The position numbers and the translations under genes were made by a program. From Microbacterium trichothecenolyticum (lineage in GTDB: Bacteria > Actinomycetota > Actinomycetes > Actinomycetales > Microbacteriaceae), in the NCBI RefSeq assembly GCF_000956465.1, contig NZ_JYJA01000033.1:124001-188000 (forward strand): a stretch of DNA of 64,000 nt, in the 5' to 3' direction. The notes beneath the pieces are model-generated. The model was not told where the DNA came from, ran no database searches, and saw nothing but the letters and a program-made list of their open reading frames with translations. Shown in pieces: positions 6,878 through 62,569 of this stretch. How positions within the stretch are numbered: the stretch's first letter is position 1; every line of letters begins with the position of its first letter.

Positions 6878-9103
6878 TCATCGATGGTGGATGCCGGACG
6901 CCAGCGTCTCGTCCGCACGCCCGGGAAGCCGGAGCACAGCCTCGACGCCCGCCGGCACCTCGACGCGCAGGCGCAGCTCGGGATCCGCATCCCAGCGGAC
7001 CGCGGCGCGGCCGTGCGGCGTCTCGAGGCTCGCCTCCGCCCACGTGAGGCCGCCGCCCGGCTGCGGTGCCACCAGGATGCGTCGGTAACCCGGGTCGAGG
7101 GGTGCGATGCCGCCGATCGACCGGTGCATCCAGTCGGCGACGGCCCCGAACGCATAGTGGTTGAAGCTCGTCATCTCGCCCGGGTTGACGCTGCCGTCGG
7201 GCAGCATCGAATCCCAGCGCTCCCAGATCGTGGTGGCGCCCATCGTCACCGGGTAGAGCCACGACGGCACCTCGCGCTGCAGCAGCAGTGCGTAGGCATC
7301 GTCGAGGTGGCCGGTCGACGTCAAGGCATCGAGGATGAACGGGGTCCCGGCGAACCCGGTGCTGATGCGATGCCCCGCCTCGCGCACGAGTTCGGCCAGC
7401 CGATCGCCGGCGCGCTGCACGTCGGCATCGTCGAGGATGCCGAACACGATCGCGAGCGCATAGACCGTGGCGCTGTCACTCTCGACACGCCCGTCGTGGA
7501 CGTACCGAGTGCGGAAGCCGACGCCGATGCGATCGCGCAGCGCGCGGAACTCCGCAGCATCCGACTCCGCGCCCAGCACCGCCGCCGCCCCGGCGACAAG
7601 GCCCGCACTGCGATAGGCGCTCGCCGTGGCGACGACCTCTGCCGGCGCCTTGGACTTGCCCGGGTCATCGGCGGGCGCGTCCGGATCCAGCCAGTCCCCG
7701 AACTGGAACCCGGAGTCCCACGCACCGTCGGGTGCGAGCGCCGCCTCGACGCTGCGAACGTGCGCGGTCATGAGGGGGTAGGCGTCGCGGAGCGTCTGCT
7801 CGTGGCCGTACGCGGTCCACAGCGCCCACGGCACCCACACGGCGGCATCGCCCCAGACGGCGGTCGCGCCCGGTTCGGGGAATCCCGTCTCGAGGTGCTT
7901 CATGACGTTCGGGACCACGACGGGCACTGTCCTCAACGGCGTCGCCTGCCGCTCGAGCTCGGCGTCGATGAGCCAGTCCGCGAGGAAGCCCTCGACATCG
8001 CCGAGGAACGCCGCCGTCGGAGCGAACACCGCGAGGTCACCCGTCCAGCCGAGACGCTCGTCGCGCTGCGGGCAGTCCGTCGGCACGCTCAGGAAGTTGC
8101 CCTTCATCCCCCACACCACGTTGCTGTGCAGCTGATTCAGGAGTGCGTCGGAACACGCGAACGTGCCGGTGGGGCGGATGTCGGATCCGACCACGACCGC
8201 GGTCAGCGCCTCGGGGTCGAGCTCGCCCGGCCAGCCGGTGACCTCCGCATAGCGGAACCCGTGGAAAGTGAGCGTCGGCTCGAACACGTCGTCGCCGCCG
8301 CTGAGGACGAATCGATCCGTCGCCTCGGCGCGCCGCAGCGGGCGTGTGCCGAGCTCGTCGCCTTCGAGCACTTCCGCATGACGAAGGACGATCTCGCTGC
8401 CGGCCGGACCTGAGACCCGCACCCGTACGAACCCGACGAGGTTCTGACCGAAGTCGACGAGGGTCCGCCCTGATGGCGAGGTCCAGACCCGCTCCACGGC
8501 CCGCTCACCCAGCCGCCGGACGGGCGGTGAGGTTCGGGGGACGAGGCGGCCCGGGTCGACGTCGACGGCGTGCACCGCATCCCACTGCGCGTCGTCGAAT
8601 CCCGGACGCTGCCAGGAGCGGTCCCGCAGGCGGGCGTCGATCGTCTCGCCGTTGTAGAGGTCGTCGGCGAGGACCTCACCCGTTCCGGCGCGCCACGACT
8701 CGTCGGTGCCGACGCGCTGAACGTGACCGTCGGCGAAGCGGATCTCGAGCTCGGCGTACCCGGCGCGCTCGTCTCCGTAAACCGCGCGCTGGCCGGTGAA
8801 GCCGAGCCAGCCGCGGTACCACCCGTTCCCGAGCCGCAGCGCGACGACGGTCCGCTCGGCGACGGCGGTGGTGACATCGTGCTCGACGAGACGCACGCGC
8901 CACTCGTAACTCGTCCACCCTGGCGCGAGCAGTTCGTCGGACGACGGGATGCCGTTCACCCACGCCTCGATGACCCCCTGGGCGGACGTGCGCAGAATCG
9001 CGCTGTCCACCGGGCCGTGCCCTGGATCGAGCGTGAACTCGCGACGCAGGAGAGGCGCCGCCTCCGCCGGATGATCGGGCGCGATCATCATCGCCTTCGT
9101 CAT
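6878..9103 (-). CDS. alpha-L-rhamnosidase GH78
   Basis: A 741-residue complete GH78 rhamnosidase. Order: rhamnosidase N domain (VNGIPSSDELLAPGWTSYEW near residue 50), strand VDFGQNLVGFVRVRV near 217, then the (alpha/alpha)6 barrel beginning with the family signature VPTDCPQRDERLGWTGD at 340-356, which carries the general-acid region (E349). A C-terminal sandwich ends in DETLASGIHHR. It is shorter than many GH78 enzymes because it lacks an extra N-terminal sandwich. There is no signal peptide, so it probably acts on imported rhamnosides such as rutin. The start overlaps the stop of the nucleoside-hydrolase gene by ATGA, and the esterase starts 13 bp downstream. Confidence 0.93.
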   Translation of the reverse strand: MTKAMMIAPDHPAEAAPLLRREFTLDPGHGPVDSAILRTSAQGVIEAWVNGIPSSDELLAPGWTSYEWRVRLVEHDVTTAVAERTVVALRLGNGWYRGWLGFTGQRAVYGDERAGYAELEIRFADGHVQRVGTDESWRAGTGEVLADDLYNGETIDARLRDRSWQRPGFDDAQWDAVHAVDVDPGRLVPRTSPPVRRLGERAVERVWTSPSGRTLVDFGQNLVGFVRVRVSGPAGSEIVLRHAEVLEGDELGTRPLRRAEATDRFVLSGGDDVFEPTLTFHGFRYAEVTGWPGELDPEALTAVVVGSDIRPTGTFACSDALLNQLHSNVVWGMKGNFLSVPTDCPQRDERLGWTGDLAVFAPTAAFLGDVEGFLADWLIDAELERQATPLRTVPVVVPNVMKHLETGFPEPGATAVWGDAAVWVPWALWTAYGHEQTLRDAYPLMTAHVRSVEAALAPDGAWDSGFQFGDWLDPDAPADDPGKSKAPAEVVATASAYRSAGLVAGAAAVLGAESDAAEFRALRDRIGVGFRTRYVHDGRVESDSATVYALAIVFGILDDADVQRAGDRLAELVREAGHRISTGFAGTPFILDALTSTGHLDDAYALLLQREVPSWLYPVTMGATTIWERWDSMLPDGSVNPGEMTSFNHYAFGAVADWMHRSIGGIAPLDPGYRRILVAPQPGGGLTWAEASLETPHGRAAVRWDADPELRLRVEVPAGVEAVLRLPGRADETLASGIHHR

Positions 9104-34659: not shown

Positions 34660-36099
34660 ATGGCGTTGCCGCTGCTGCTGGACGATGCGCTCGTCTCGAC
34701 GGAATCCGGCTTCGCGCTGCGCGTGAGCCTGCCGTGGATCCGGTCCATGCCGCTGGCGGCCGTCACCGATCTCGCGGTCTCGATCGACGGCTCCCCCGTC
34801 TCGGTCACCGCCCGGCTCGACGGGCGCGACGTCGCACCGGGCGCCCTCTCCACCGAGCCGGGATGGTGGTTCATCCAGGACCGCCTCGAGCTGCGGGGCG
34901 TCGGGATGCTGCCGCCCGGCGCGCACGATGTCTCGGTGTCGTTCGTGCTCGTGGTGCCGTATCTGCAGGCGGGCCCGTCCGGGCCGCTCGCGCTGCCGCT
35001 GCGCGCCGATCGTGCGCTCGGCCTCCGGGACGAGGCATCCGTCGCTCGCCGCCCGGTCGCAGACAGGGCGACCCCGGCCGAGCAGGCGGTGCCGGCGGGC
35101 GGCGACCTGCCGGGCGAGTGGACCGTCTCAGCCAGCGCGTTCAACTGGACGCCCGAGGTCATCCGCGCAGAGCGCTCCGCGTCCGACATCGCGATCGGCG
35201 TGGTCGGCGATGGTGTCGCCGCGACCATCGAGATCGAGGCCGGGCAGGTGTGGCGCTCGTTCCCGGATCCCTCCGACGCGGAGGTCGACGCGTTCCGCGA
35301 GCGCCTGACGGCTGCAGGCGGCGCCGTGACGATCGTCGGCGCGAGCCTCGACGATTGGGCGTCGCCCTCGGGCCGTCGCACGGACGAGGAGCGGCTCGCG
35401 TTCCTCGTGCCGCAGCTGCGCGCGGCCGCGCGCCTCGGCGCCCGGGGCGTGCGCGTCCCTTTCGGGCAGACGGGGTCCGAGCTGCTGCGCCTGGCGCAGC
35501 CGGTTCTCCACGACCTCGGCGTCGTGCTCTACGAAGAGATCCAGGGGCAGCAGAGCCTCGACGTGCCCGCGAACGCGGCCAACCTCGAGCTGCTCCAGGA
35601 GCTCGACGATCCCCGCATCCGGGTGCTGATCGACATCAGCATGCTCATGCCGTCGCTGCCGCCGTCGTACCTCGAAGAGCTGCGCCGGGGTGGTGTCGAC
35701 GACTCTCTGCTTCACCGTCTCGACACCGCGTGGCGGGCGCCCGAGACCCACGAAGCAGTGATCGCGACGCTCCGCGAGGGACGAGTGCCCCCGTCGGTCC
35801 ACACGCTCTTCATGAACCTGCTCGTGCGCTTCGGTCGCTCGGAGGTGGCCGACCTCGAACCGCTGCTGCCCCTCACCACCGGCGTGCACCTGAAGTTCTG
35901 GGACCTCGACGACGCCGAAGGGCGGGTGTCGCGCCCGATCGGCGACATCGGAGCAGCCCTGCGGCGCACCGGCTTCGCCGGCACACTGACGAGCGAGTGG
36001 GGCGGCCACGAGTGGCTGGACGCGGATGCCGCCACGATGACCCGAGCCCACCTGGCGCTCTCGCGCCGCGCGCTGGCCGGAGCATCCGTCAGAGCGTGA
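34660..36099 (+). CDS. single-chain C-deglycosidase-like fusion (DUF6379-like + TIM barrel), divergent
   Basis: A 479-residue protein. The N-terminal about 120 residues match the DUF6379 beta-sandwich pattern (LPWIRSMPLAAVTDLAVSIDG, WWFIQDRLEL, VVPYLQAGPSGPL). After a Pro/Ala-rich linker (about 125-152) comes a xylose-isomerase-like TIM barrel with candidate metal ligands E293, D325, H410 (VHLKFWD) and E446 (TSEWGGHEW). The barrel is shorter and less similar than the other four in this window. Known C-deglycosidases are two-subunit complexes of exactly these parts. The ATG at 34660 follows AAGGGAG; a GTG 9 bp upstream overlaps that ribosome site. It is monocistronic, with a 42-bp palindromic terminator after it. 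Confidence 0.7.
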   Translation: MALPLLLDDALVSTESGFALRVSLPWIRSMPLAAVTDLAVSIDGSPVSVTARLDGRDVAPGALSTEPGWWFIQDRLELRGVGMLPPGAHDVSVSFVLVVPYLQAGPSGPLALPLRADRALGLRDEASVARRPVADRATPAEQAVPAGGDLPGEWTVSASAFNWTPEVIRAERSASDIAIGVVGDGVAATIEIEAGQVWRSFPDPSDAEVDAFRERLTAAGGAVTIVGASLDDWASPSGRRTDEERLAFLVPQLRAAARLGARGVRVPFGQTGSELLRLAQPVLHDLGVVLYEEIQGQQSLDVPANAANLELLQELDDPRIRVLIDISMLMPSLPPSYLEELRRGGVDDSLLHRLDTAWRAPETHEAVIATLREGRVPPSVHTLFMNLLVRFGRSEVADLEPLLPLTTGVHLKFWDLDDAEGRVSRPIGDIGAALRRTGFAGTLTSEWGGHEWLDADAATMTRAHLALSRRALAGASVRA

Positions 36100-39299: not shown

Positions 39300-40490
39300 T
39301 CATCCCGCGCTCGTCTCGGCCACGACCGGCGCACCGACGCGCACCCAGCCGGAGTCGCTCTGCGAGCTCTCCTCGACGGCGGCCAGCACGCGCTGCACCG
39401 ACAGCCCCTCAGCGAACGACGGGTGCGGGTCGGCGCCCTCGCTGATCGCGGTCACGAGGTCCACGACCTGGTGGCTGAACCCGTGCTCGTAGCCGAGCAT
39501 GTGGCCGGCCGGCCACCATGCGGCGACGTACGGATGCTGCGCCTCGGTGACGAGGATCCGGGTGAAGCCCTGGGTGGTCTCGGGTGCGGTGCGGTCGTAG
39601 AACCACAGCGTGTTCAGGTCCTCGAGATCGAAGCGAAGGGCGCCCTTGTCGCCCGACACCTCGATCGAGAGGTCGTTCTTGCGTCCGGTGGCGAATCGCG
39701 TGGCCTCGAACGAGACCAGGGCGCCGGTGGACAGCCGCCCGGTGAAGATGGCGACGTCGTCCACGGTCACCTCGCCCACGCCGTCTGCCGCGGTCCCGGA
39801 CAGACCCGACCCGGATCCCTGCAGCGGACGCTGCTTCACGATCGTGTCGAGCACGCCCGACACCGCGGTCACGTCAAGGCCCGTCACGAACTGCGTCATG
39901 TCGATGATGTGGGCGCCGATGTCGCCGAGCGCGCCCGAACCCGCGTGCTCCTTCTGCAAGCGCCAGGCCAGCGGCATCTCAGGGTCGACGAGCCAGTCCT
40001 GACGGTATGCCGCGCGCACGTGAGCGATCCTGCCGACCGCGCCCTGTGCGATCAGATCCCGCAGGAACGTCACAGCCGGGACGCGACGGTAGGTGAACCC
40101 GACCATCGACCGAACGCCGCGAGCGGCGGCGCGGGCGGCCGCATCCGCCATGGCCTCGGCCTCTTCGACGGTGTTCGCCAGCGGCTTCTCGCAGAGCACG
40201 TGCTTCCCCGCCTCCAATGCCGCGATCGCGATCTCTGCGTGCGAGTCGCCGGGCGTCACGATGTCGACGATGTCGATGTCGTCACGGGCGATCACCTCGC
40301 GCCAATCCGTCGCCGATTCGGCCCAGCCCCACTGGGCGGCAGCATCCGCCACCGCCTCGGCATTGCGGCCGACGAGGACGGCCATCTCGATGTCGTCCGG
40401 CAGGGAGAACACGTGCGGCGCCTGCCGCCACCCGACCGAGTGCGCGGCGCCCATGAACCCGTAGCCGATCATGGCCACCCGGAGCGTCAT
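39300..40490 (-). CDS. Gfo/Idh/MocA oxidoreductase (DgpA-like candidate)
   Basis: A 396-residue NAD-dependent sugar dehydrogenase: [11 protein letters not shown] at 8-18, [14 protein letters not shown] near 100, and the catalytic Asp/His block [19 protein letters not shown]. Its length matches DgpA-type enzymes, which oxidise C3 of the glucose in C-glycosides such as puerarin. It overlaps the DUF6379 gene at 40487 by ATGA, the tightest link in this part of the operon, so it may feed that C-deglycosidase directly. The GMC enzyme at 44313 offers an FAD-dependent alternative for the same step. Confidence 0.87.
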
Positions 40491-40903
40491 GCCAGCACCA
40501 GTTCCCGCTCCACCGGTACGCGGTTGGTCACATAGCGGCCGGGGCCGCCGTCGACACCCGGCATGATCTGCATGTACAGCAGGCGCATGGTGAGCACGAC
40601 CTCCACCGTGATCTTCGCACCGGCCCCCGGCACGTCGTCGAGGTGGATGAGCACGTCCGGACGGTCCGCGACGAACCAGAGGGTGTCGGACTGCTCGGGC
40701 AGCTCCTCGACACGGTATTCGCGGCCGCCGAGAGCGAAGCGGATGTTCTCCGTCGGCACCGGAACGCCGTCGACGGATGCCGCCACTCCGTCGACCGCCG
40801 AGAGCCAGAGGCTGCGGTACCAGGGCAGCTGCACCGAGACGGCCAGCCCGTCGTCGGTGCGCCGGACGTCCTTCTCGGAGAAGAGGGAGTTATGAGTGGC
40901 CAT
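40487..40903 (-). CDS. DUF6379 protein, small subunit of a C-deglycosidase
   Basis: A 138-residue beta-sandwich protein of DUF6379 type. The family core [23 protein letters not shown] is at about residues 23-45, followed by [16 protein letters not shown] and [20 protein letters not shown]. It lacks catalytic metal ligands; in known complexes this subunit supports the TIM-barrel partner. Its sequence is strikingly close to the first 130 residues of the fused protein at 59760-61241, whose barrel half matches the gene at 41734-42768, so that barrel is its probable partner. The ATG at 40903 follows AGGAGACATC. Confidence 0.85.
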
Positions 40904-40911
40904 GATGTCTC

Positions 40912-41694
40912 CTAGGCGAAGGTGTCGGTGAAGTGGTCGTGCGGCACCGGCGGAACGGGCTCGAGCTTCTGCACGGTCTCGGGGCTGTAGGGGTGATTCG
41001 TCTCCGGCACCGGCTGGTCTGCCGGCGGCATGAAGACGGGCTTGCCGTCGTCGCCGAAGTACATCAGATCGAGGTCGAAGGCGCCCTGGTTCTTCTGGCC
41101 GAAGCTCACCCAGTTCTCCTCGAACGGGGCACGGGCGAGCTCGTAGCAGCGGAACTTCCAGAACTTCCACTCGCCGTCCTGCTTCAGGAAGTCGATCGCG
41201 TACTTGCACCACACCCAGTGCGCCCAGACCTTCTTGCCGAGCACCTCCTCCGGTGAGTACATGTCGGGGAACGCCTCCGCGACCGTCGGGTCGGTCAGGC
41301 CCGACTCCGTACCGGCCATCAGCCACACGCCCTTGGCGGTCTGCCCGTCGCCGGCGACCTCGATGACGGGAGTCGTGGTGGCGTGGAGGATGAGCTTTCC
41401 GACCGGGGACGGCCGGTCGCGGTGGTACCGCGTGACGCTCTCCCACGTGGTGTACTGCCCGGCGTTGGTGTACCGCGCGCGGATGCCCTCGGTACCCTCC
41501 TTCACCCAGAGCGGGATGATCTGCTCGTCCTGGAACGCGTTGTGCAGGTACATGTAGCGGTTGAACAGGTTCTCGACCTGGCCCCGATCCTCCGCACGCT
41601 GGGCGAGGCGCTGGGCGCCCTCGACCTGCTCACGGAGCCGGGCCACCTCGGCGGCCAGTCCGGCGATGGATGCGTCGACGACGGTGTCGGTCAT
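40912..41694 (-). CDS. NTF2-like (SnoaL-type) protein with coiled-coil N terminus
   Basis: A 260-residue protein. Residues 1-40 form a heptad-like helix (IAGLAAEVARLREQVEGAQRL). The rest is an NTF2/SnoaL-like domain: RGQVENLFNRYMYLHNAFQDE, then a curved sheet with KYAIDFLKQDGEWKFWKF. It lies between the TIM-barrel (41734) and DUF6379 (40487) genes of the same C-deglycosidase, 8 bp before the latter. It is not one of the known catalytic subunits. It might be a dehydratase/isomerase for the released enone sugar or a chaperone-like binder. Confidence 0.75.
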   Translation of the reverse strand: MTDTVVDASIAGLAAEVARLREQVEGAQRLAQRAEDRGQVENLFNRYMYLHNAFQDEQIIPLWVKEGTEGIRARYTNAGQYTTWESVTRYHRDRPSPVGKLILHATTTPVIEVAGDGQTAKGVWLMAGTESGLTDPTVAEAFPDMYSPEEVLGKKVWAHWVWCKYAIDFLKQDGEWKFWKFRCYELARAPFEENWVSFGQKNQGAFDLDLMYFGDDGKPVFMPPADQPVPETNHPYSPETVQKLEPVPPVPHDHFTDTFA

Positions 41695-41733: not shown

Positions 41734-42768
41734 TCAGGCCGGCTGGCGCTGCGCGACGGTCTCTTCGATGGCACGCCGCATCAGCGTGTGCTGCTTCTTG
41801 ACCAGATCGATCGGGTCGGACTCGCCGAGGTCGGAGAAGGCGTGACCCTCCCACTCGCTCGAGAGGTAGCCCTGGTAACCGCCCTCCACGAACTGCTTCA
41901 CGATGCGCGGGATGTCCATCGCGGGCTCTTCGCCGTCGGCGCCGATGTCGTAGAACTTCGCGTGCACGTGGAAGATCTGCGGCATGATGTCGAGCCACTC
42001 CTCCGGCGGCACGAGCCCGTGCATGTTGAAGGCGAGGCGGGTGAAGGGACCGAACCTCAGGAAGTCGACTCCTTCGGCAGTGAGGTAGTCCTCGAACTTC
42101 TGGTTGCGCACGTGCATCGGCGTGGGCTCGTGCCAGATCTCGTCCATGACCGAGAAGTGCTTCTCGTCCATGCCCATCTGGCTGAGCGTGCGCAGCAGGG
42201 TCGGCGAGAGCGAGTGCATCGTCGACGAGAAGTCCGCGGTGAAGCCCAGGCGATCCGACTGCAGCTCGTCGTACATCTCGCGCATCTGCAGCACGTGGGG
42301 GTCATTCGGCCCGGAGGGCGCGTGGATCTCGTACCCGAGCTTCTGGTCGTACTTCTCGGCGAGGGGCAGGAGACTGCGCAGCAGCTCCTTGCCGTGAGAG
42401 CGGATGACGACCCTCTTGAAGCCGAGGGTGTGCGCGGTCTTCAGCTGGCGCGCCAGGAACTCGTGCTCCTCGTCGGGTGTCATGTCGCGGTCCTTGCGAC
42501 GACCCATGTCGAGGTTGGTGCCGACCGCGCTCGGTTCGAGGCCGAACCGCTCGATCGAGTCGAACCAGAGCTTGACGAACGCGTCGTCGACGTCGGGGTA
42601 GGTGCGCAGCAGCTGCGCGATGTTGAACTCGATGCCGGGGCCGATGCCCTCTTCGGCGACCGCGGCGATCAGTGTCTCGGGCGTATAGAGGCCCGCCGCG
42701 AACTCGCTCGTCATCGAATACAGCGTGGTGCCCAGCTTGATGCCGGTGCCGGCGATTCCGTCGCTCAT
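41734..42768 (-). CDS. C-deglycosidase catalytic TIM-barrel subunit
   Basis: A 344-residue xylose-isomerase-like TIM barrel: KLGTTLYSMTSEF at the N terminus, GIGPGIEFNIAQLLRTYP, TNLDMGRRKDRDMTPDEE, and metal ligands E147 (GYEIHAP), D179 (TADFSS), H269 (FHVHAKFYDI) and E305 (SSEWEGHA). In DgpBC/CarBC-type enzymes this subunit holds a divalent metal and cleaves the C1-aryl bond of 3-keto-C-glucosides. It is nearly collinear with the barrel half of the fusion at 59760. It overlaps the next barrel gene by ATGA (42765). Confidence 0.85.
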   Translation of the reverse strand: MSDGIAGTGIKLGTTLYSMTSEFAAGLYTPETLIAAVAEEGIGPGIEFNIAQLLRTYPDVDDAFVKLWFDSIERFGLEPSAVGTNLDMGRRKDRDMTPDEEHEFLARQLKTAHTLGFKRVVIRSHGKELLRSLLPLAEKYDQKLGYEIHAPSGPNDPHVLQMREMYDELQSDRLGFTADFSSTMHSLSPTLLRTLSQMGMDEKHFSVMDEIWHEPTPMHVRNQKFEDYLTAEGVDFLRFGPFTRLAFNMHGLVPPEEWLDIMPQIFHVHAKFYDIGADGEEPAMDIPRIVKQFVEGGYQGYLSSEWEGHAFSDLGESDPIDLVKKQHTLMRRAIEETVAQRQPA

Positions 42769-43871
42769 GCGTGTGCTCCTTCGGTGTTGGGCAGCCAGGC
42801 TCCGAGCTGCGTGCGGGCCTCGGCGAGGTCCGTGATCATCCGTGAACCGGCCGCCTCGGCGGCCGAGCGCTGCACAGCCTGCTCGTCCGAGATGATGTCG
42901 AACGGGGACTGCCAGTAGTTCCAGTGCCAGCCTTCGTACTCGCTGGAGATGGCCCCGTTGTACCCGTTCTCCACGAGCAGCTTCACGAGGTCGCGCACCG
43001 GGACCGATGGCTCTTCGCCGTTCTCGTCGATGCCGAAGAACTTGCCGTGCACGTGCTTGATCCACGGCGCGATCGTGCGCCAGTCATCCACGCGCGCCGG
43101 ACCGAACAGGCCCGTGCCGTTGATGCCGAAGTCGATCCCGAGGTCGGGGCGACCGTGGCGCGCAGCGAGTCCGATGAATGAGCCGAAGCGCTGGCCGTGG
43201 TCGGCCTGATCGGCCGGCGGGCCCTGCTCGTAATAGGTGTTCCAGAGGTCGACGACCTGTCCGAGCAGCTCTTCGGACGCACCGCGGCGACGGTAGGCCT
43301 CGATCAGCGACGGGGCGAAGCCGCTGACGGTGGCGCCCCAGTCCATCGTGAATCCGAGGAACGGCGAGCCGACCTTCTCGTAGCGGTCACGCAGCGCGAG
43401 GATCCGCGGGTGCGAGGCGTACTGGTCGGCGTGCACCTCGAGGGCGAGGGTGACCCCGTGCGCCTCGGCGATGGGGGCCAGAGCCTCCATCGAGTCCGGT
43501 TCGATCGAGATCTGCACGCGCGCGATCGGGAAGCCGAGCTTCGCGGCCGCCTTGATCTGCAGGGTCATGTACTCGATCAGCTCGTCCTGGTTCAGCAGGC
43601 GATCACGGTGGATGCCGATGTCGGCGTTGACGGCGAGCGAGGTCGTCACGAGCCCGACTTCGTCGATCAGATCGCGGAACCAGCCCGCGTACGCATCGTC
43701 GATCGCCGGGAAGCCGCGGAAGCTGGAGAAGCCGATGATCTCGAGGCCCGGTCCGAACCCGTCCGCCGCCGTCTTGCGGATGAGTCCCTCGAGGTCGTAC
43801 TCCCGGCCATGGAACGCCCGGGTGAAGCTGTACAGGGTCACGCCCTGGATCGGAGTGCCGAGCGCGGTCAT
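42765..43871 (-). CDS. C-deglycosidase catalytic TIM-barrel subunit (second set)
   Basis: A 368-residue TIM barrel related to its neighbour but distinct: GVTLYSFTRAFHGREYDLEGL, GFGPGLEIIGFSSFRGFP, LAVNADIGIHRD, with metal ligands E145 (LALEVHA), D177 (TMDWGA), H275 (KHVHGKFFGI) and E311 (SSEYEGWHW). Its ATG overlaps the stop of the DUF6379 gene at 43868, so those two form the second two-subunit C-deglycosidase. Different loop sequences from the 41734 enzyme suggest a different aglycone. Confidence 0.85.
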   Translation of the reverse strand: MTALGTPIQGVTLYSFTRAFHGREYDLEGLIRKTAADGFGPGLEIIGFSSFRGFPAIDDAYAGWFRDLIDEVGLVTTSLAVNADIGIHRDRLLNQDELIEYMTLQIKAAAKLGFPIARVQISIEPDSMEALAPIAEAHGVTLALEVHADQYASHPRILALRDRYEKVGSPFLGFTMDWGATVSGFAPSLIEAYRRRGASEELLGQVVDLWNTYYEQGPPADQADHGQRFGSFIGLAARHGRPDLGIDFGINGTGLFGPARVDDWRTIAPWIKHVHGKFFGIDENGEEPSVPVRDLVKLLVENGYNGAISSEYEGWHWNYWQSPFDIISDEQAVQRSAAEAAGSRMITDLAEARTQLGAWLPNTEGAHA

Positions 43872-44263
43872 GCCGCCACCGCCTTCATGGTCTTGGTGTT
43901 CTTCTCGTCGATGTGCAAGGTCTCGGTGTCGGAGATGATGATGTACGGGATGTAGAGGGTGAGCCCGACCGTCACCTCGTGCTCGGCGTCCGCCTCGATG
44001 TCGAGGTCTCCCGAGAGCACGGCCGAATCCGTCGGGAACCACCACTCGTCGATGTTCGTGCGCAGCTCGTCGAACGTGAACTCAGCGCCGTTCATCTCCC
44101 AGCGCAGCGACTCCGCGGGGGCGGTCTTGCCGTCGATCGTCAGCTCTGCGCCGGCGATGCAGGACCCCGGCAGGGCCCGGTACCAGGGCAGCCGGACCTC
44201 GACCGCGGCACGCGGTCCGTCGGTCCGCAGCGTGCCCTGCTCGATGATGCGATCGGGGATCAC
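43868..44263 (-). CDS. DUF6379 protein, small subunit of a C-deglycosidase (second set)
   Basis: A 131-residue DUF6379 beta-sandwich: VEVRLPWYRALPGSCIAGAE near residue 22, EFTFDELRTNIDEWWFP, and VGLTLYIPYIIISDTETLH at the end. It keeps the PWYR core motif but differs strongly from the copy at 40487. The start is GTG at 44263 behind AGGAGAG. It is translationally coupled to the barrel gene at 42765 and follows the GMC oxidase by 49 bp, giving the order oxidase, small subunit, large subunit. Confidence 0.85.
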   Translation of the reverse strand: MIPDRIIEQGTLRTDGPRAAVEVRLPWYRALPGSCIAGAELTIDGKTAPAESLRWEMNGAEFTFDELRTNIDEWWFPTDSAVLSGDLDIEADAEHEVTVGLTLYIPYIIISDTETLHIDEKNTKTMKAVAA

Positions 44264-44298: not shown

Positions 44299-44319
44299 CT
44301 GTAATGTCTGAATCAGACA
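44299..44319. promoter_or_regulatory. palindrome TGTCTGA-A-TCAGACA overlapping GMC stop, with ACATTA-like site
   Basis: A perfect 7+1+7 palindrome (44305-44319) covers the stop codon of the GMC gene at 44313; the overlapping complement reads ACATTACAG, like the shared ACATTAGTA motif elsewhere. The downstream gap is AT-rich. It could be an internal operator/promoter for the C-deglycosidase genes or an RNA-processing hairpin. Confidence 0.4.
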
Positions 44320-45860
44320 GAAGCAAGATCTGCGGTGATCTCATCGGCGATATGCCGTGCACCGCGGACCGCCAGCGCGACGCCCGTGAGCGTCGGGTTG
44401 CAGGCCGTGGCCGTCGGGATGACGCCGTTGCCCGCGACGAAGAGCCCGGGCGCTCCCCAGACTTCGCTGTCGGGCGAGCACACGCTCGCGCCGTCGTCGG
44501 CCAGACCCATGCGAACGGTGCCCTGATAGTGCAGCGACGCTCCGAGCGGCATCACGAACGGGCGGTCGTCGAGGGGGTCGCCGATCGCCTTCCCCAGGCG
44601 CACGATCTCGGCCTTGGCCCGGTCGATCGTCGCGTGGTCGCGGTCGCTCAGCGTGTAGTGCAGCTGCATCGCGGGCATCCCGTAACCGTCGACATCGCTG
44701 TCCGAGAACGCCACGCGGTCCGAGGCCTGGAGGTCCTTCGCGCAGAACAGCCCCAGCCCCACGATCGAGCCCGGCGCCGCAGGGTCGTCGTCGGCGAGCT
44801 TCACCGGAGACGCGTCGAGCTGCATGACCTGGCCGTGGAAGGGCATGTCGTCGGTGAACGGCACCCACGTCACCCCGGTGTATTCGCTCAGGCCGGTCTG
44901 CGGGACACCGTCCGCATCGACCACGGGGGTGAAGTCGCGCATGCGCACGGCGAACACGATCTGCGCCTGGTCGTTGAGATACCGGCCGAGGGCATCGGGA
45001 CGGATGCCGGAGGCCCAGAGCAGCTGCGGCGTCCGCAGCGCGTCGGCGGCGACCACGACGAAGCGGGCGCGCACATCGCGCCGTTCTCCCGTCCGGACGT
45101 CCGTGACGACCACGCCGGCGGCCCGGCCGTCCTCGACCAGCACGCGGGTCACGAGGGACTCGTCGAACAGCGTGAAGTTCGGGTTTCCGCGGGTGATGTC
45201 TCCGAGAACGACATCCGAACCCGACCACACCAGCGGCCCGTCGTCGCGGCGATGCACCGCGAGCGGCATCCGCTGCACGCGCTCATCCGCATCCCGATGA
45301 GCGTCCTCCACCGCGGCGAGCCGCTCGCGCACGATCCCCGCATAAGGTGACGCATCGAACGCGTCGGTGGTGACCCCGAGCAGTCGCTCCCCCTCCGAGA
45401 GCAGCTCGTCGAGCTCGCCCGTCTCGTCGAGGAAGCCGATGCGCTCGCTGTCATTCGGCCGGGGGCAGGCCCCCGTCCAGTGCGCGGCCATGCCTCCGAC
45501 GTTGCTCGAGAACGCAGCGACCGGCAGACCGTCCTCGCCGTCCGCCTGATAGCCGGACTCGAGCAGGTAGGTGCCCGGGCGCGCGCGCCGTTGGGCGGAC
45601 TTCACGATGCCGCCGACACGGTCGTCGTCCTCGCGAGCGTGCGGCCCCTCCGACCGGCGCTGAGCGTGGGCACGCTCGTCGGCGTCCGCGATGTTCTTCA
45701 CGTGCGCCCCGGGCGGGTCCGACACGGTGGGGCCGACCTCGAACATCGCGATGGTCGCCGATGACGCCCGCTCGCTCAGGATTCGGGCATAGGTCGCGCC
45801 GGCCGGGCCGCTGCCGACGATCGCGACGTCGACCTGCGCGGGGTATACGCGGGTGCTCAT
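44313..45860 (-). CDS. GMC-family FAD oxidase, C-glycoside 3-oxidase (CarA-like)
   Basis: A 515-residue GMC/pyranose-oxidase-type flavoprotein: GSGPAGATYARIL at 16-28, SNVGGMAAHWTGACPRP, LLWASGIRPDALGRYL, and the catalytic pair H444 (ASLHYQGTVRMG) and N488 (TACNPTLTGVALAVRGARH). CarA of a carminic-acid-degrading Microbacterium has the same architecture and oxidises C3 of the glucosyl residue. It is placed directly before a DUF6379/TIM-barrel pair and after a Hyi-like gene (ATGA overlap), making it the probable first enzyme of the pathway. Cytoplasmic, O2- or acceptor-dependent. Confidence 0.88.
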   Translation of the reverse strand: MSTRVYPAQVDVAIVGSGPAGATYARILSERASSATIAMFEVGPTVSDPPGAHVKNIADADERAHAQRRSEGPHAREDDDRVGGIVKSAQRRARPGTYLLESGYQADGEDGLPVAAFSSNVGGMAAHWTGACPRPNDSERIGFLDETGELDELLSEGERLLGVTTDAFDASPYAGIVRERLAAVEDAHRDADERVQRMPLAVHRRDDGPLVWSGSDVVLGDITRGNPNFTLFDESLVTRVLVEDGRAAGVVVTDVRTGERRDVRARFVVVAADALRTPQLLWASGIRPDALGRYLNDQAQIVFAVRMRDFTPVVDADGVPQTGLSEYTGVTWVPFTDDMPFHGQVMQLDASPVKLADDDPAAPGSIVGLGLFCAKDLQASDRVAFSDSDVDGYGMPAMQLHYTLSDRDHATIDRAKAEIVRLGKAIGDPLDDRPFVMPLGASLHYQGTVRMGLADDGASVCSPDSEVWGAPGLFVAGNGVIPTATACNPTLTGVALAVRGARHIADEITADLASV

Positions 45861-58862: not shown

Positions 58863-59767
58863 TGCGTCCCGCCGATCCAGCGCACGATCGCTTCGATGGT
58901 CGGCAGCGCGGCCGGGTCGGCGGGCTCGTTGATGTGGCCGTGGTCGGCGCCGGCCTCGAGGCGGAGAGCGACGTCGATCCCGGCAGCATCCAACTGCCGT
59001 GCGAAAGCCTCGCCCGACGGACGCAGGCCGTCGAATTCGCACACGAGCACGAACGTCGGCGGGAAGCCGTCGACCGACCCGAGTGCCGCGAAGGCGTGCG
59101 CATCGCCGAGCGCCTCGACGGACCCCGCGAAGTTCAGCGCGAGGCCACCATGCGGGGAGTCGGGATCGAGTTCTGCGGAGGCCGCTGGTCCGTTCGGATG
59201 CACGACCGGGTAGACGAGCACGAGCCCGTCGGGCACCCGATCGCCGGCGTCCCTCAGTCGCGCGACCGCGCCGGCGGTCAGGTTGCCGCCGGCACTCGCA
59301 CCCCCGAGGTATACGGTGTCGGCGGCGAACAGCTCATCCGCGTGCGCGACCGCGTGCCGCCAGGCGGCGAGCACGTCGTCCGAGGGCGCGGGGAAGTGCA
59401 CGTCGCCGAGGCACTTGACGTAGTCGACGGCGAGCACCGGGATGCCGCGCGCCGCGAGTTCGAGCGCGAACCAGTTCGACTCCGGCATGTCGAGGTGGCC
59501 GCCGATGAAGGCGCCGCCGTGCACCCACACGAGCGCGCGACCGGATGCCTCGGCCGAGGCATCCGTGTACAGCCGCGCCGGCACGGCACGGGCGCCCCCG
59601 TCGATCGCGGCATCGCGCGTCTCGACGTTCGCGAGGCGCGGGAAGCGGCGCTTCAGCGACTCCGTGTCGATGTCGGGTCGCGGGTCGGCCGGCTCGCCCT
59701 GCTCGCGGAACATCCGGAGCACCTCGGGCAGGGGCAGCGTGCGGAAGTCGACCTCGGTGTCAGACAT
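58859..59767 (-). CDS. alpha/beta hydrolase, HSL-type esterase
   Basis: A 302-residue HSL-type carboxylesterase: HGGAFIGGH oxyanion motif, GGASAGGN nucleophile elbow, CEFDGLRPSGEAF acid, and ADHGHINEP with the catalytic His. It resembles the esterase at 5950-6864. Its first 8 bp overlap the end of the fused C-deglycosidase gene (59760), so they are co-translated. Possible job: removing acetyl, malonyl or cinnamoyl groups that block sugars of plant glycosides before oxidation and C-C cleavage. Confidence 0.85.
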   Translation of the reverse strand: MSDTEVDFRTLPLPEVLRMFREQGEPADPRPDIDTESLKRRFPRLANVETRDAAIDGGARAVPARLYTDASAEASGRALVWVHGGAFIGGHLDMPESNWFALELAARGIPVLAVDYVKCLGDVHFPAPSDDVLAAWRHAVAHADELFAADTVYLGGASAGGNLTAGAVARLRDAGDRVPDGLVLVYPVVHPNGPAASAELDPDSPHGGLALNFAGSVEALGDAHAFAALGSVDGFPPTFVLVCEFDGLRPSGEAFARQLDAAGIDVALRLEAGADHGHINEPADPAALPTIEAIVRWIGGTQ

Positions 59768-61241
59768 GAGCCGCCTGCACGGCGCGCATCGAGGCGCGGA
59801 TGAGGTCGTGCTGCTTTCGGACGAGCAGCAGCGGATCGACTTCGCCGAGCTCGGCGAAGGCGTGCCCTTCCCACTCGCTCGACCAATAGCCGCGGTAGCC
59901 GCCCTCGACGAAGACGCGCACGAGCTCCGGGTAGTCGATCGCGGGCTCCTGGCCGTTCTCGTCGATGTCGTAGAACTTCGCGTGGACATGCGTGATCTGC
60001 GGCATGATATCGGCCCACTCGCGCGGGTCGACGTGGCCGTGCATGTTGAAGGCGAGGTGCGCGAACGAGCCGAGGCGGCCCGGGTCGAAGCCGCGGGACT
60101 TCAGGTAGCCGATGAACTCCTGCTGCCGCTCCTGCATGGTGGCATCGGTCGCCCAGATGCGCTGCAGCTCGGCGAGCGCGGCGTCATCCAGCCCTGCGCG
60201 CGCCACGGCGCGCAGCAGCGTCGGCGACATGCTGTGCATCGTCGACGAGAAGTCCGCGACGAATCCGAGCAGCGGCGAGTCCAGCTCGGCGTACGTGTCG
60301 CGCACCTTCAGGATCGGCTCGGCGTTCGGCCCCATCGGCGCGTGGATCTCGTACGCCAGCTGCAGGTCGAGTCGCTCCGCCACCGGAAGCAGCCGCCGCA
60401 GCAGCTCGGGCTTCGCCGACTGGATGCGCACCAGCGGGAACCCGAGCTTCTTCGCCCCCTGGAACATCAGCTCGCTGAACTCGAACTCCTCGTCCGGAGT
60501 CATGTCACGGTCGCGCCGGCGACCCATGTCGAGGTTCGCGCCGAAGGAGCTCGCGTCGAAGCCGTGCTTGTCGAAGGCGGCGCGCCACTGCGCGACGAAC
60601 TCGTCCGACACCACCGGGTAGGTCGGCAGCACCTGCGACGCGACGATCTCGATGCCGGGTCCGATGCCGAGCTCGGCCACGCGGTCGAGCAGGCCGTCGA
60701 AGTCGTACCAGCCCGCGCGGAACTCCGCACTCGCCGAGTACAGCGTGAGGCCGAGCTTGAAGGGGTCGTCCTCCGTGGCGGGCGGCGGAGGCGCGATGTC
60801 GGTCGCGGTCGCGAGGGGCGCAGCATCCGTGTCCGTCACTGTCAGCGTGAAGGACTGGCGCACGATGTTCGGCACATACAGGCCGGGGCCGCCGTCCTGT
60901 CCGGGCGCGATCTGCATGTACGGCAGGCGCAGCTCGCCGAAGATCTCGACGTCGTGCTGCTCGCCGAGCGCGACCGGCTGGTCGAGCCGTGCGACGAGGA
61001 GCGGATGCTGCTGCAGGAACCACAGCGTCTCGCTCTGCTGCGGCAGCTCGGCGAGCGCGTAGCGCGTGCCGCCGAGCTCGAAGGCGAGGTCGTCGGCCGG
61101 GAGCTCGACGCCGTCGACGGTGAGGCGGAGCGTCGAGACGGACGAGAGCCACAGGCTCCGGTACCACGGGATCGTGAGTTTCAGGGCGAGCCCGTCAGGG
61201 TGCGGACGGAGGCTGTCTTCGGCGATGAGTCCGTTGGGCAT
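59760..61241 (-). CDS. single-chain C-deglycosidase (DUF6379 and TIM-barrel subunits fused)
   Basis: A 493-residue fusion. Residues 1-135 are a DUF6379 domain ([43 protein letters not shown]), very like the separate subunit at 40487. Residues 136-160 are an Ala/Pro linker (IAPPPPATEDD). Residues 161-493 are a TIM barrel matching the separate subunit at 41734, with intact metal ligands E298, D330, H420 and E456. Known enzymes of this class are heteromers, so the fusion fixes a 1:1 ratio. The ATG at 61241 follows GGAGAGAACC. It is followed by esterase, GH35-like and GH43 genes in one unit. Confidence 0.85.
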   Translation of the reverse strand: MPNGLIAEDSLRPHPDGLALKLTIPWYRSLWLSSVSTLRLTVDGVELPADDLAFELGGTRYALAELPQQSETLWFLQQHPLLVARLDQPVALGEQHDVEIFGELRLPYMQIAPGQDGGPGLYVPNIVRQSFTLTVTDTDAAPLATATDIAPPPPATEDDPFKLGLTLYSASAEFRAGWYDFDGLLDRVAELGIGPGIEIVASQVLPTYPVVSDEFVAQWRAAFDKHGFDASSFGANLDMGRRRDRDMTPDEEFEFSELMFQGAKKLGFPLVRIQSAKPELLRRLLPVAERLDLQLAYEIHAPMGPNAEPILKVRDTYAELDSPLLGFVADFSSTMHSMSPTLLRAVARAGLDDAALAELQRIWATDATMQERQQEFIGYLKSRGFDPGRLGSFAHLAFNMHGHVDPREWADIMPQITHVHAKFYDIDENGQEPAIDYPELVRVFVEGGYRGYWSSEWEGHAFAELGEVDPLLLVRKQHDLIRASMRAVQAAHV

Positions 61242-61267
61242 GGTTCTCTCCGTTTTCGGGCGGTTCG

Positions 61268-62569
61268 TCAGAGGGTGGAGGCGATGGATCGGATGAGGGA
61301 GTGCTGCCGGCGCACCTGCTCGATCGAGCGCCAGGGGATGCGATCGCCCTCGTACTCGCTCGAGAGGTACCCGGCGTATCCGGCGTCCTTGAGGGCGCGC
61401 AGCACCGGCTCCCACGGGATCTGCTGATCCACGAGGTTCTCGTCGATGTCGTGGAACTTCGCCTGGATGAAGACGACGTACTTCGCGATGTCGGCGATGT
61501 CGGCGGGGTCGACGGCGATGCCGTCGAGGAACGCGGGACGACGACCCGGCAGCTCTCCGGGCTTCAGCGGGATGGGCCGGTCCTGGAAGATGCCGGTGTC
61601 GAGCAGCAGTCCGAAGTGCTGGGTTCCGGTGCGCTCGATGAGACCGATGTAGTCGTCGACGACCTCGTGCTTGATGGGGGTCGGCGAGTGGATCTCGGGG
61701 CAGATGACGACGTCGAGCTCCGCCGCGAGGTCGAGCGAGCGCTCGACGGACTCGGTCCAGATGGGGTGCGGGACGAGGTCGCTCGACACGACGCCGATCT
61801 TCGGGCGCACGAAGCGGAACCCGAGCCGCTTCGCAAGGCGCAGGTCGCGCTGCAGCATCGCAGCTCCCTCGGCTGCCGTGAGGTCGCGCGCGTTCGCGCC
61901 GCTCGAGTGCAGGCGGGTGTCGATCCACGAGCCGTAGTTCGTGGGCTCGAGCGAGTACTTCTCGAGCAGGGCGAACCAGCGGTCGATCCACTCGGTCGTG
62001 GGCTCCGGGTACCGCTCGATGTGCCCTTCGCCGAGGATCTCGACGCCCGTCGCGCCGACGTCGGCCACCGCGGCGAGCGCCGTCTCGAGGTCCATGACGG
62101 TGCCGTAGTCGCTCATGAAGCTGTAGAGACTGACGCCGTACTTGAAGGGTCCGCCGTCCTCCGAGGAGGTCAGCGTGATGTGCCGCGAGACCTCGTACGT
62201 GGAGGGCTGGTGCTCCTGGGGGATGTACGACATGCGCAGGCGCAGCTGGATCGAGACCTCGTGCGTGCCCTCGGGAAGCCCGCCCGGGTGCGGCACCGTC
62301 ACGATCGCAGCCTCCTCGAGCGGCCAGCGGACGCCCTCCGAGTCCCACAGCTCCTGCAGCGAGTACGTGCGGCCGGCGAAGGTCCAGCAGGGCACCTCCG
62401 CGGGGACGTCGACGAGATCGCCGACGCGGACCGCGACGCCGTCGATGAGGGATGCGGCCATGCCGCGGTACGAGGGCATGCGGAGGCGAAACTGAAAGCC
62501 GGTGGTCTCACCCCCTTCGCGCACATTGCGGAAGCCGACGGACTGGATGAGATCTCTCTCGAGAAGCAT
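61268..62569 (-). CDS. single-chain C-deglycosidase homologue with Gln at a metal site
   Basis: A 433-residue fusion of a divergent DUF6379 domain (residues 1-135; RMPSYRGMAASLIDGVAV, QLRLRMSYIPQ) and a TIM barrel (141-433; YGVSLYSFMSDYG, GATGVEILGEGHIERYPEP). Metal ligands are E292 (CPEIHSP), D324 (LLLDTG) and E405 (SSEYEGDR). The expected His of HVHAKF is replaced by Gln, VFIQAKFHDI (Q369), with H373 close by. Gln is tolerated in related isomerases, so activity may be kept but altered. First gene of the unit 62569 to 55645, 26 bp ahead of the other fusion, and divergent from a LysR gene. Confidence 0.8.
   Translation of the reverse strand: MLLERDLIQSVGFRNVREGGETTGFQFRLRMPSYRGMAASLIDGVAVRVGDLVDVPAEVPCWTFAGRTYSLQELWDSEGVRWPLEEAAIVTVPHPGGLPEGTHEVSIQLRLRMSYIPQEHQPSTYEVSRHITLTSSEDGGPFKYGVSLYSFMSDYGTVMDLETALAAVADVGATGVEILGEGHIERYPEPTTEWIDRWFALLEKYSLEPTNYGSWIDTRLHSSGANARDLTAAEGAAMLQRDLRLAKRLGFRFVRPKIGVVSSDLVPHPIWTESVERSLDLAAELDVVICPEIHSPTPIKHEVVDDYIGLIERTGTQHFGLLLDTGIFQDRPIPLKPGELPGRRPAFLDGIAVDPADIADIAKYVVFIQAKFHDIDENLVDQQIPWEPVLRALKDAGYAGYLSSEYEGDRIPWRSIEQVRRQHSLIRSIASTL

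Follow-up and report, generated by a model that had tools for sequence, protein, structure and literature searches.

C-glycoside deglycosidases (CGDs), which break sugar-carbon bonds of plant compounds, are usually, though not universally, enzymes of more than one subunit. DgpBC/PuCGD and DfgAB/EuCGD, both from gut bacteria, are split heterooctamers composed of alpha and beta parts (PMC8563793). In split CGDs both subunits are needed, the beta subunit is not swappable between PuCGD and EuCGD, and the two subunit genes lie side by side as far as the authors of that study investigated (PMC8563793). AgCGD2 (CarB2-C2) of Arthrobacter globiformis (PDB 7DNM and 7DNN) is also made of two chains, which are encoded in the order alpha then beta. 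Nevertheless a one-chain enzyme has been deposited: entries 8QRZ and 8UN2, titled 'Microbacterium testaceum C-glucosyl deglycosidase (CGD)' and released on 2025-04-23 (8UN2 by electron cryo-microscopy), describe a protein in which both domains, a CGDB domain followed by a TIM barrel, lie in one chain, of 435 amino acids (aa) in 8QRZ. In the open literature, outside of which most subscription journals fall, no text on a single-chain CGD was found, and a search by PDB code returned unrelated papers.

In this report we describe F1, a gene of Microbacterium trichothecenolyticum located at 59760..61241 on the minus strand of a 64,000-nucleotide stretch (contig NZ_JYJA01000033.1, positions 124,001 to 188,000) which is referred to as the window. 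It encodes a putative single-chain CGDB-TIM C-glycoside deglycosidase of 493 aa, whereas the CGDs described from this species are split as far as the accessible literature goes. The chemistry that we propose for F1 is that of DgpBC/PuCGD and DfgAB/EuCGD. An earlier note on this DNA had regarded the one-chain form as a new architecture, on the view that characterised C-deglycosidases are multi-subunit; this cannot be maintained, since 8QRZ and 8UN2 are already single CGDB-TIM chains and a near-ortholog of them, F2 (61268..62569, minus strand), adjoins F1 upstream. What stands of that proposal is a natural one-chain alpha/beta form of AgCGD2 lineage with a full catalytic set. Within the searches made, the novelty would be that one-chain CGDs have a second lineage, which is separate and widespread, has a canonical site and split orthologs, and is predicted to arrange its domains otherwise than in the solved structure.

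Domain structure and active site of F1

F1 starts with an ATG at 61241 and ends with a TGA at 59760-59762, and its translation contains no internal stops; the boundaries given in the earlier note were exact. The beta-like domain (aa 1-134, 60840..61241) matches the Pfam family PF19906 at aa 16-108 (E 3e-13, 50 bits against a cut-off of 27.6) and carries a PWYR motif at aa 25-28. PF19906 (CGDB, C-glycoside deglycosidase beta subunit) is presumably the former DUF6379, and PDB chains named DUF6379 match this half of F1. It is followed by an Ala/Pro-rich linker of 27 residues (aa 135-161, 60759..60839), which lies between the last strand of the beta domain and the first strand of the barrel in the structure model, and by a TIM barrel with lid region (aa 162-493, 59763..60758) that gives an AP_endonuc_2 match at aa 186-469 (E 1.4e-8). 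Translation and Pfam thus confirm that one chain joins the domain with the PWYR motif, the linker and the barrel. A separate internal start for the barrel was considered and rejected, as between aa 113 and 166 the only candidates in frame are GTG codons at aa 123, 127 and 135, with no clear Shine-Dalgarno sequence by eye. An NCBIfam search with seven CGD proteins named none of them, and a viral fold library gave weak barrel matches and nothing stronger.

The two halves of F1 resemble a split gene pair of the same genome, S1: residues 161-486 are 56% identical to the alpha subunit (S1a, 41734..42768, minus strand, AgCGD2-alpha type) and residues 3-144 are 44% identical to the beta subunit (S1b, 40487..40903, minus strand, AgCGD2-beta type). 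The likeness had been noticed before, and it is real, but the two genes are paralogs of the F1 halves and not necessarily the direct fusion partners that they had been taken for.

The AlphaFold model of F1 has a mean confidence (pLDDT, predicted local distance difference test) of 93.9 and a predicted template modelling score (pTM) of 0.91. The earlier note had suggested comparing such a model with a CarBC-type complex, and the F1 halves match the AgCGD2 chains separately: 7DNM_A (alpha) over all 336 residues at 2.0 Å (Z 44.4) and 7DNM_B (beta) over 135 columns at 1.7 Å. The sequence matches agree, with E 1.1e-128 for the barrel half to 7DNM_A and E 1.3e-32 for the beta half to 7DNM_B. According to the model, F1 has the lid region of the AgCGD2 and PuCGD alpha subunits, which is absent in EuCGD.

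The metal ligands and the catalytic His of AgCGD2 (PMC8563793) are present in F1. E147, D179, H269, K271 and E305 correspond to E298, D330, H420, K422 and E456, and the catalytic His is H300. The earlier note had counted four metal ligands; the full E/D/H/K/E set is in place. Replacing the metal ligands by Ala dramatically reduced activity in published work (PMC8563793). Ten positions (Y17, S124, E147, H149, D179, N248, M249, H269, K271 and E305 in AgCGD2 numbering) are kept in 62/62 F1 fused barrels, so that metal ligands, catalytic His, Tyr17, Asn248 and Met249 are shared with AgCGD2, as is the Tyr of the beta part. The latter, Tyr27 of F1 (codon 61161-61163, minus strand), aligns with Tyr39-beta of PuCGE, the change of which to Phe abolished more than 99% of C-glycoside cleavage (PMC10628242), and it is kept in all 64 F1 fused beta halves, the one of the window included. 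For these counts and for the trees a minimum of 270 (alpha) or 95 (beta) residues was required, which removed 22 rows, among them the barrels of loci L096 and L107.

The window contains three CGDB-TIM fusions, two of which the earlier note did not mention, and, judged from these residues, F1 is the sole one with a canonical CGD site. In F2 the metal ligand H269 is replaced by Gln in 51/51 fused rows, in the PDB row and in 9/9 rows of the split class (including L055, a gene truncated at the contig end), and there are gaps at Asn248 and Met249. The third and divergent fusion, F3 (34660..36099, plus strand), has a CGDB match of 24.8 bits, below the Pfam cut-off of 27.6. It retains the metal ligands, whereas the catalytic H149 is Gln (EIQG) in 5/5 rows, two of which (L065 and L069) share no more than 34-35% identity with F3, and Ile (PWIR) takes the place of the beta Tyr in 7/7 rows. 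F3 is possibly a pseudoenzyme, or an enzyme with new chemistry.

F1 and the M. testaceum enzyme are both single chains with CGDB ahead of the barrel, yet they superpose poorly: against the full 8QRZ chain the F1 model gave a root mean square deviation of 17.5 Å over 513 columns, and the alignment by VIA-align was confined to the barrel, with 292 residues starting at model residue 147. F2 aligns with 8QRZ over 432 residues (E 7.3e-240), and its AlphaFold model, made without templates, agrees with 8UN2 (TM 0.97, 1.6 Å over 433 columns). The linker between the strands measures 27 residues in the F1 model (135-161) and 9 in that of F2 (134-142). F1 and the 8QRZ-type fusions are therefore predicted to differ in the placement of the beta domain, which in F1 would act in cis and in F2 would be arranged differently, perhaps in trans.

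Proposed reaction and competing explanations

We consider that F1 is a single-chain C-glycoside deglycosidase, that is, a 3-keto-C-glycoside lyase acting after CarA, with a probability of roughly 0.75. Following the mechanism described for the family (PMC10628242, PMC8563793, PMC13273386), a CarA-type GMC oxidase would oxidise C3 of the sugar, and the resulting 3-keto glycoside would be bound by the F1 barrel via a divalent metal held by E298, D330, H420, K422 and E456. His300 would act as acid/base at C2 while Tyr27 of the fused beta-like domain would hold or ionise the aglycone phenol, and the C-C bond would be broken by beta-elimination to give the aglycone and a 2-hydroxy-3-keto-glycal. 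We infer the activity itself, the preference for C-glycosides and that the linker lets both domains of one chain build one site.

Several observations weigh against this proposal. In the published docking, Arg123 of AgCGD2 touches the aglycone; in 62/62 F1 barrels this position is occupied by Gln, and the replacement suggests an aglycone preference unlike that of AgCGD2. The window is rich in O-glycoside hydrolases (GH43, GH106 and GH3), and the cis arrangement of the two domains comes solely from the predicted model. In a sample of 398 genomes of the family, all 20 genomes with F1 also have an S1-type barrel match (54-58% identity), which makes a simple replacement of the split by the fused enzyme unlikely; two genomes (G026 and G321) have an S1-type match without F1. 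F1 may thus have taken over another substrate than its split paralogs.

Part of this would fit an enzyme that mainly beta-eliminates 3-keto O-glycosides, or that hydrates a glycal, instead of cleaving C-C bonds, an explanation that we consider unlikely though not to be neglected. The O-glycoside hydrolases in the window and the change of Arg123 to Gln are in keeping with it, the coexisting split CGD pairs could carry out the C-C step, and the alpha subunit of PuCGE alone keeps about 1.4% of the activity on 3-keto-phlorizin (PMC10628242). However, F1 has retained a whole beta domain, and its Tyr, kept in 64/64 beta halves, is the aglycone-side residue that in PuCGE is nearly dispensable for the O-glycoside and essential for C-glycosides, whereas AtOGE, a barrel lyase which acts on O-glycosides, has no beta subunit (PMC10628242).

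That F1 is a xylose-isomerase-like sugar isomerase or epimerase with an accessory domain is highly improbable. The AP_endonuc_2 match and lower-scoring structural hits on tagatose, psicose and xylose isomerases/epimerases point in that direction, but the CGD barrels occupy the first 13 rows of the structural list of F1 (Z 30.5-44.4, against at most 26.0 for the rest) and the CGDB domain belongs to the family of the CGD beta subunit. There is slightly less again to recommend the view that F1 has little catalytic activity and serves to bind or stabilise the split enzymes: the altered active sites of F2 and F3 make such a role conceivable, but the catalytic set is kept in all 62 F1 barrels.

Distribution and origin of the fusion

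In the family sample, where three candidates were scored per genome and further copies were not counted, near full-length one-frame matches to F1 were found in 20/398 genomes, its own included, and matches of any kind in 27/398. The former span aa 1 or 4 to about 490 with 68-83% identity, the own copy being 100% identical. The distribution is patchy, as most of the listed genus-mates had no match. A phylum sample gave a match to query P0002 in 3/396 genomes, its own included, the sole full-length match being the own one, so that the frequency of F1 outside Microbacteriaceae and Micrococcaceae rests on few genomes.

A scan of the loci of named genomes kept the best 80 of 98 relatives, corresponding to 69 distinct loci; as these relatives were chosen by similarity to the fused query, the scan favours fused forms. 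The beta and alpha parts are in one frame in 63 of the 69 loci, of which 44 belong to Microbacteriaceae, 14 to Micrococcaceae, one to Demequinaceae and one to a record labelled Fulvimarina (a contig of a metagenome-assembled genome (MAG), perhaps misassigned), with three having no assigned family. Among the fused loci, L107 is frameshifted inside the barrel and L096 is cut short near a contig end. Concerning the six others, the halves are in different frames in L098, L110 is a split pair of AgCGD2 type whose contig had already entered the count as L058, and the gene is split in L102, L105, L106 and L108. One F1-type match (aa 1-490, 80% identity) is located on a 1-Mb plasmid of Arthrobacter sp. 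StoSoilB13 (NZ_AP024649.1, 561187-562656), which indicates that an F1-type gene can reside on a plasmid.

The linker is of near-constant length, the distance from YMQI to LGLTLYS being 51 residues in 56/62 pattern-matched rows. Its substitutions are mostly at third positions in the five pairs compared, and codon-position statistics are coding-like throughout. The earlier note had named an unseen stop or frameshift in the linker as the finding that would undo the fusion, and none was found; it had also left to a database search how rare such fusions are, a question on which the counts above bear. It could be argued, from the stop and restart at the same place in the four split orthologs, that two genes merely look like one here owing to a sequencing error, a frameshift or read-through. 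This idea is ruled out for practical purposes by the in-frame fusion in 63/69 loci, two of which carry damage or a truncation in another part of the gene, and in 20/398 family genomes, and by the constancy and third-position substitutions of the linker.

These split orthologs were found in Microbispora siamensis (L105), Geodermatophilus saharensis (L106), Sinomonas (L108) and an actinobacterial MAG (L102), with the beta gene always directly before the alpha gene. In L102 the beta stop is followed by 12 nucleotides and then by the alpha ATG, and the N-terminus of the alpha protein carries an Ala/Pro-rich tail, MTSTFLESAAAPAVPGSG, ahead of the first barrel strand. As the fused linker sits where the C-terminal tail of beta and the N-terminal tail of alpha lie in the split orthologs, F1 would most simply have arisen when a beta gene followed by an alpha gene lost its stop codon. 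The S1 pair, in contrast, has the order alpha then beta.

Phylogenetic trees were built by a quick search from 103 of 224 alpha and 102 of 210 beta sequences, with branch support by the Shimodaira-Hasegawa-like approximate likelihood ratio test (SH-aLRT) and without bootstrap; the pool comprised 218 alpha and 205 beta sequences from the loci and the window, and 6 and 5, respectively, from PDB. In the barrel tree fused F1, split F1 and S1 make up a single clade with 44 rows (SH-aLRT 100), within which the nearest two of the three are not separable, and in the beta tree they are also together (support 92). AgCGD2 belongs to the same lineage as both halves of F1. The F2 barrel groups with EuCGD-alpha (SH-aLRT 99) and with split F2-like pairs, those of Leifsonia among them; of the two fusions, F2 is the one closer to EuCGD. 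Approximately unbiased (AU) tests rejected fused F1 and F2 as one clade for the barrels (p 2.66e-6, log-likelihood difference 496) and for the beta halves (p 0.0084), and rejected F1 and F3 as one clade for the barrels (p 6.0e-6); the groups compared were named after the trees had been seen, and both trees carried long-branch warnings. The fewest fused/split changes are 4 on the barrel tree, two damaged rows uncounted, and 6 on the beta tree, numbers that cannot separate fusion from fission. Since the AU tests reject a shared clade, and in the trees of both halves F1 groups with split AgCGD2 and F2 with split EuCGD, at least two separate CGDB-TIM fusions, F1 and the 8QRZ type, are well supported by these comparisons, and a third event, F3, is likely. 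A single ancestral fusion for F1, F2 and F3 was discarded on the same tests.

The gene cluster and its significance

The start of F1 is 26 nucleotides past the stop of F2 and is preceded, at a spacing of 4 nucleotides, by a Shine-Dalgarno-like GGAGAG (61246..61251, minus strand), for which reasons the two genes are probably co-transcribed. In many loci there is a recurring order of F2, F1, a solute-binding protein, two permeases, a TIM protein, a GMC oxidase, S2b, S2a, S1a and S1b. In the window glycoside hydrolase genes separate F1 from the rest of the cluster, and several loci lack F2 or other members. S2a (42765..43871) and S2b (43868..44263), both on the minus strand, are a second split alpha and beta subunit, respectively; the loop features of S2a suggest the MtCGD/AgCGD1 type, and S2 is probably MtCGD. 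A gene for a SnoaL-like protein (40912-41694, minus strand) lies between the S1 alpha and beta genes and is there in some loci and not in others.

The GMC C-glycoside 3-oxidase of the window (44313..45860, minus strand), about 14 kb from F1, is identical in 515/515 residues to PDB 7DVE, which is MtCarA from M. trichothecenolyticum NBRC15077 (PMC10646112). The molecule name of this entry, 6'''-hydroxyparomomycin C oxidase, looks misannotated.

The cluster order is shared by A. globiformis NBRC 12137 (L088). There the S1a gene shows 100% identity with 7DNM_A across 326 residues, and F1 is located about 8.5 kb ahead of it on the upstream side. For Pseudarthrobacter siccitolerans 4J27, the available part of the published text on the cluster gives four split CGD proteins near PsG3Ox; in this genome (L080) we found F2 and F1 about 6.8 and 5.4 kb, respectively, before a GMC gene, presumably PsG3Ox.

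F3 is fused in the window and in loci L049 and L052, and split in Agromyces, with a stop and a new start in the same frame in L086 and with different frames in L058 and L094. In the own genome of F1, contig C9 carries near 7300-8600 a split CGDB and TIM pair (L117), 48% and 56% identical to the F2 halves, which adjoins an apparent GMC oxidase (by eye). Two further loci, L115 and L116, contain open reading frames of about 520 codons with a CGDB-like N-terminal domain (26.2 and 22.7 bits, below the Pfam cut-off) and with a C-terminal part that by eye resembles a uroporphyrinogen-decarboxylase-type barrel, which would be a different fusion of a CGDB-like domain.

Taking these features together, we tentatively hypothesize, at somewhat less than even odds, that F1 is an independent one-chain invention in which a long linker would allow a single polypeptide, active as a monomer, to complete its C-C-cleaving site in cis, whereas in the short-linker 8QRZ type the beta domain would have another position, perhaps against an adjacent barrel. 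One cluster would then hold split, cis-fused and differently fused versions of the enzyme, along with F3, which is without the catalytic His and Tyr. In a natural one-chain enzyme the pairing and stoichiometry of the subunits are fixed, which could make it a simpler catalyst for cleaving C-glycosides or for running the reverse C-glycosylation, as shown for PuCGE (PMC13273386). Moreover, repeated fusion in one cluster, with split orthologs in relatives, would provide a natural series on what fusion changes.

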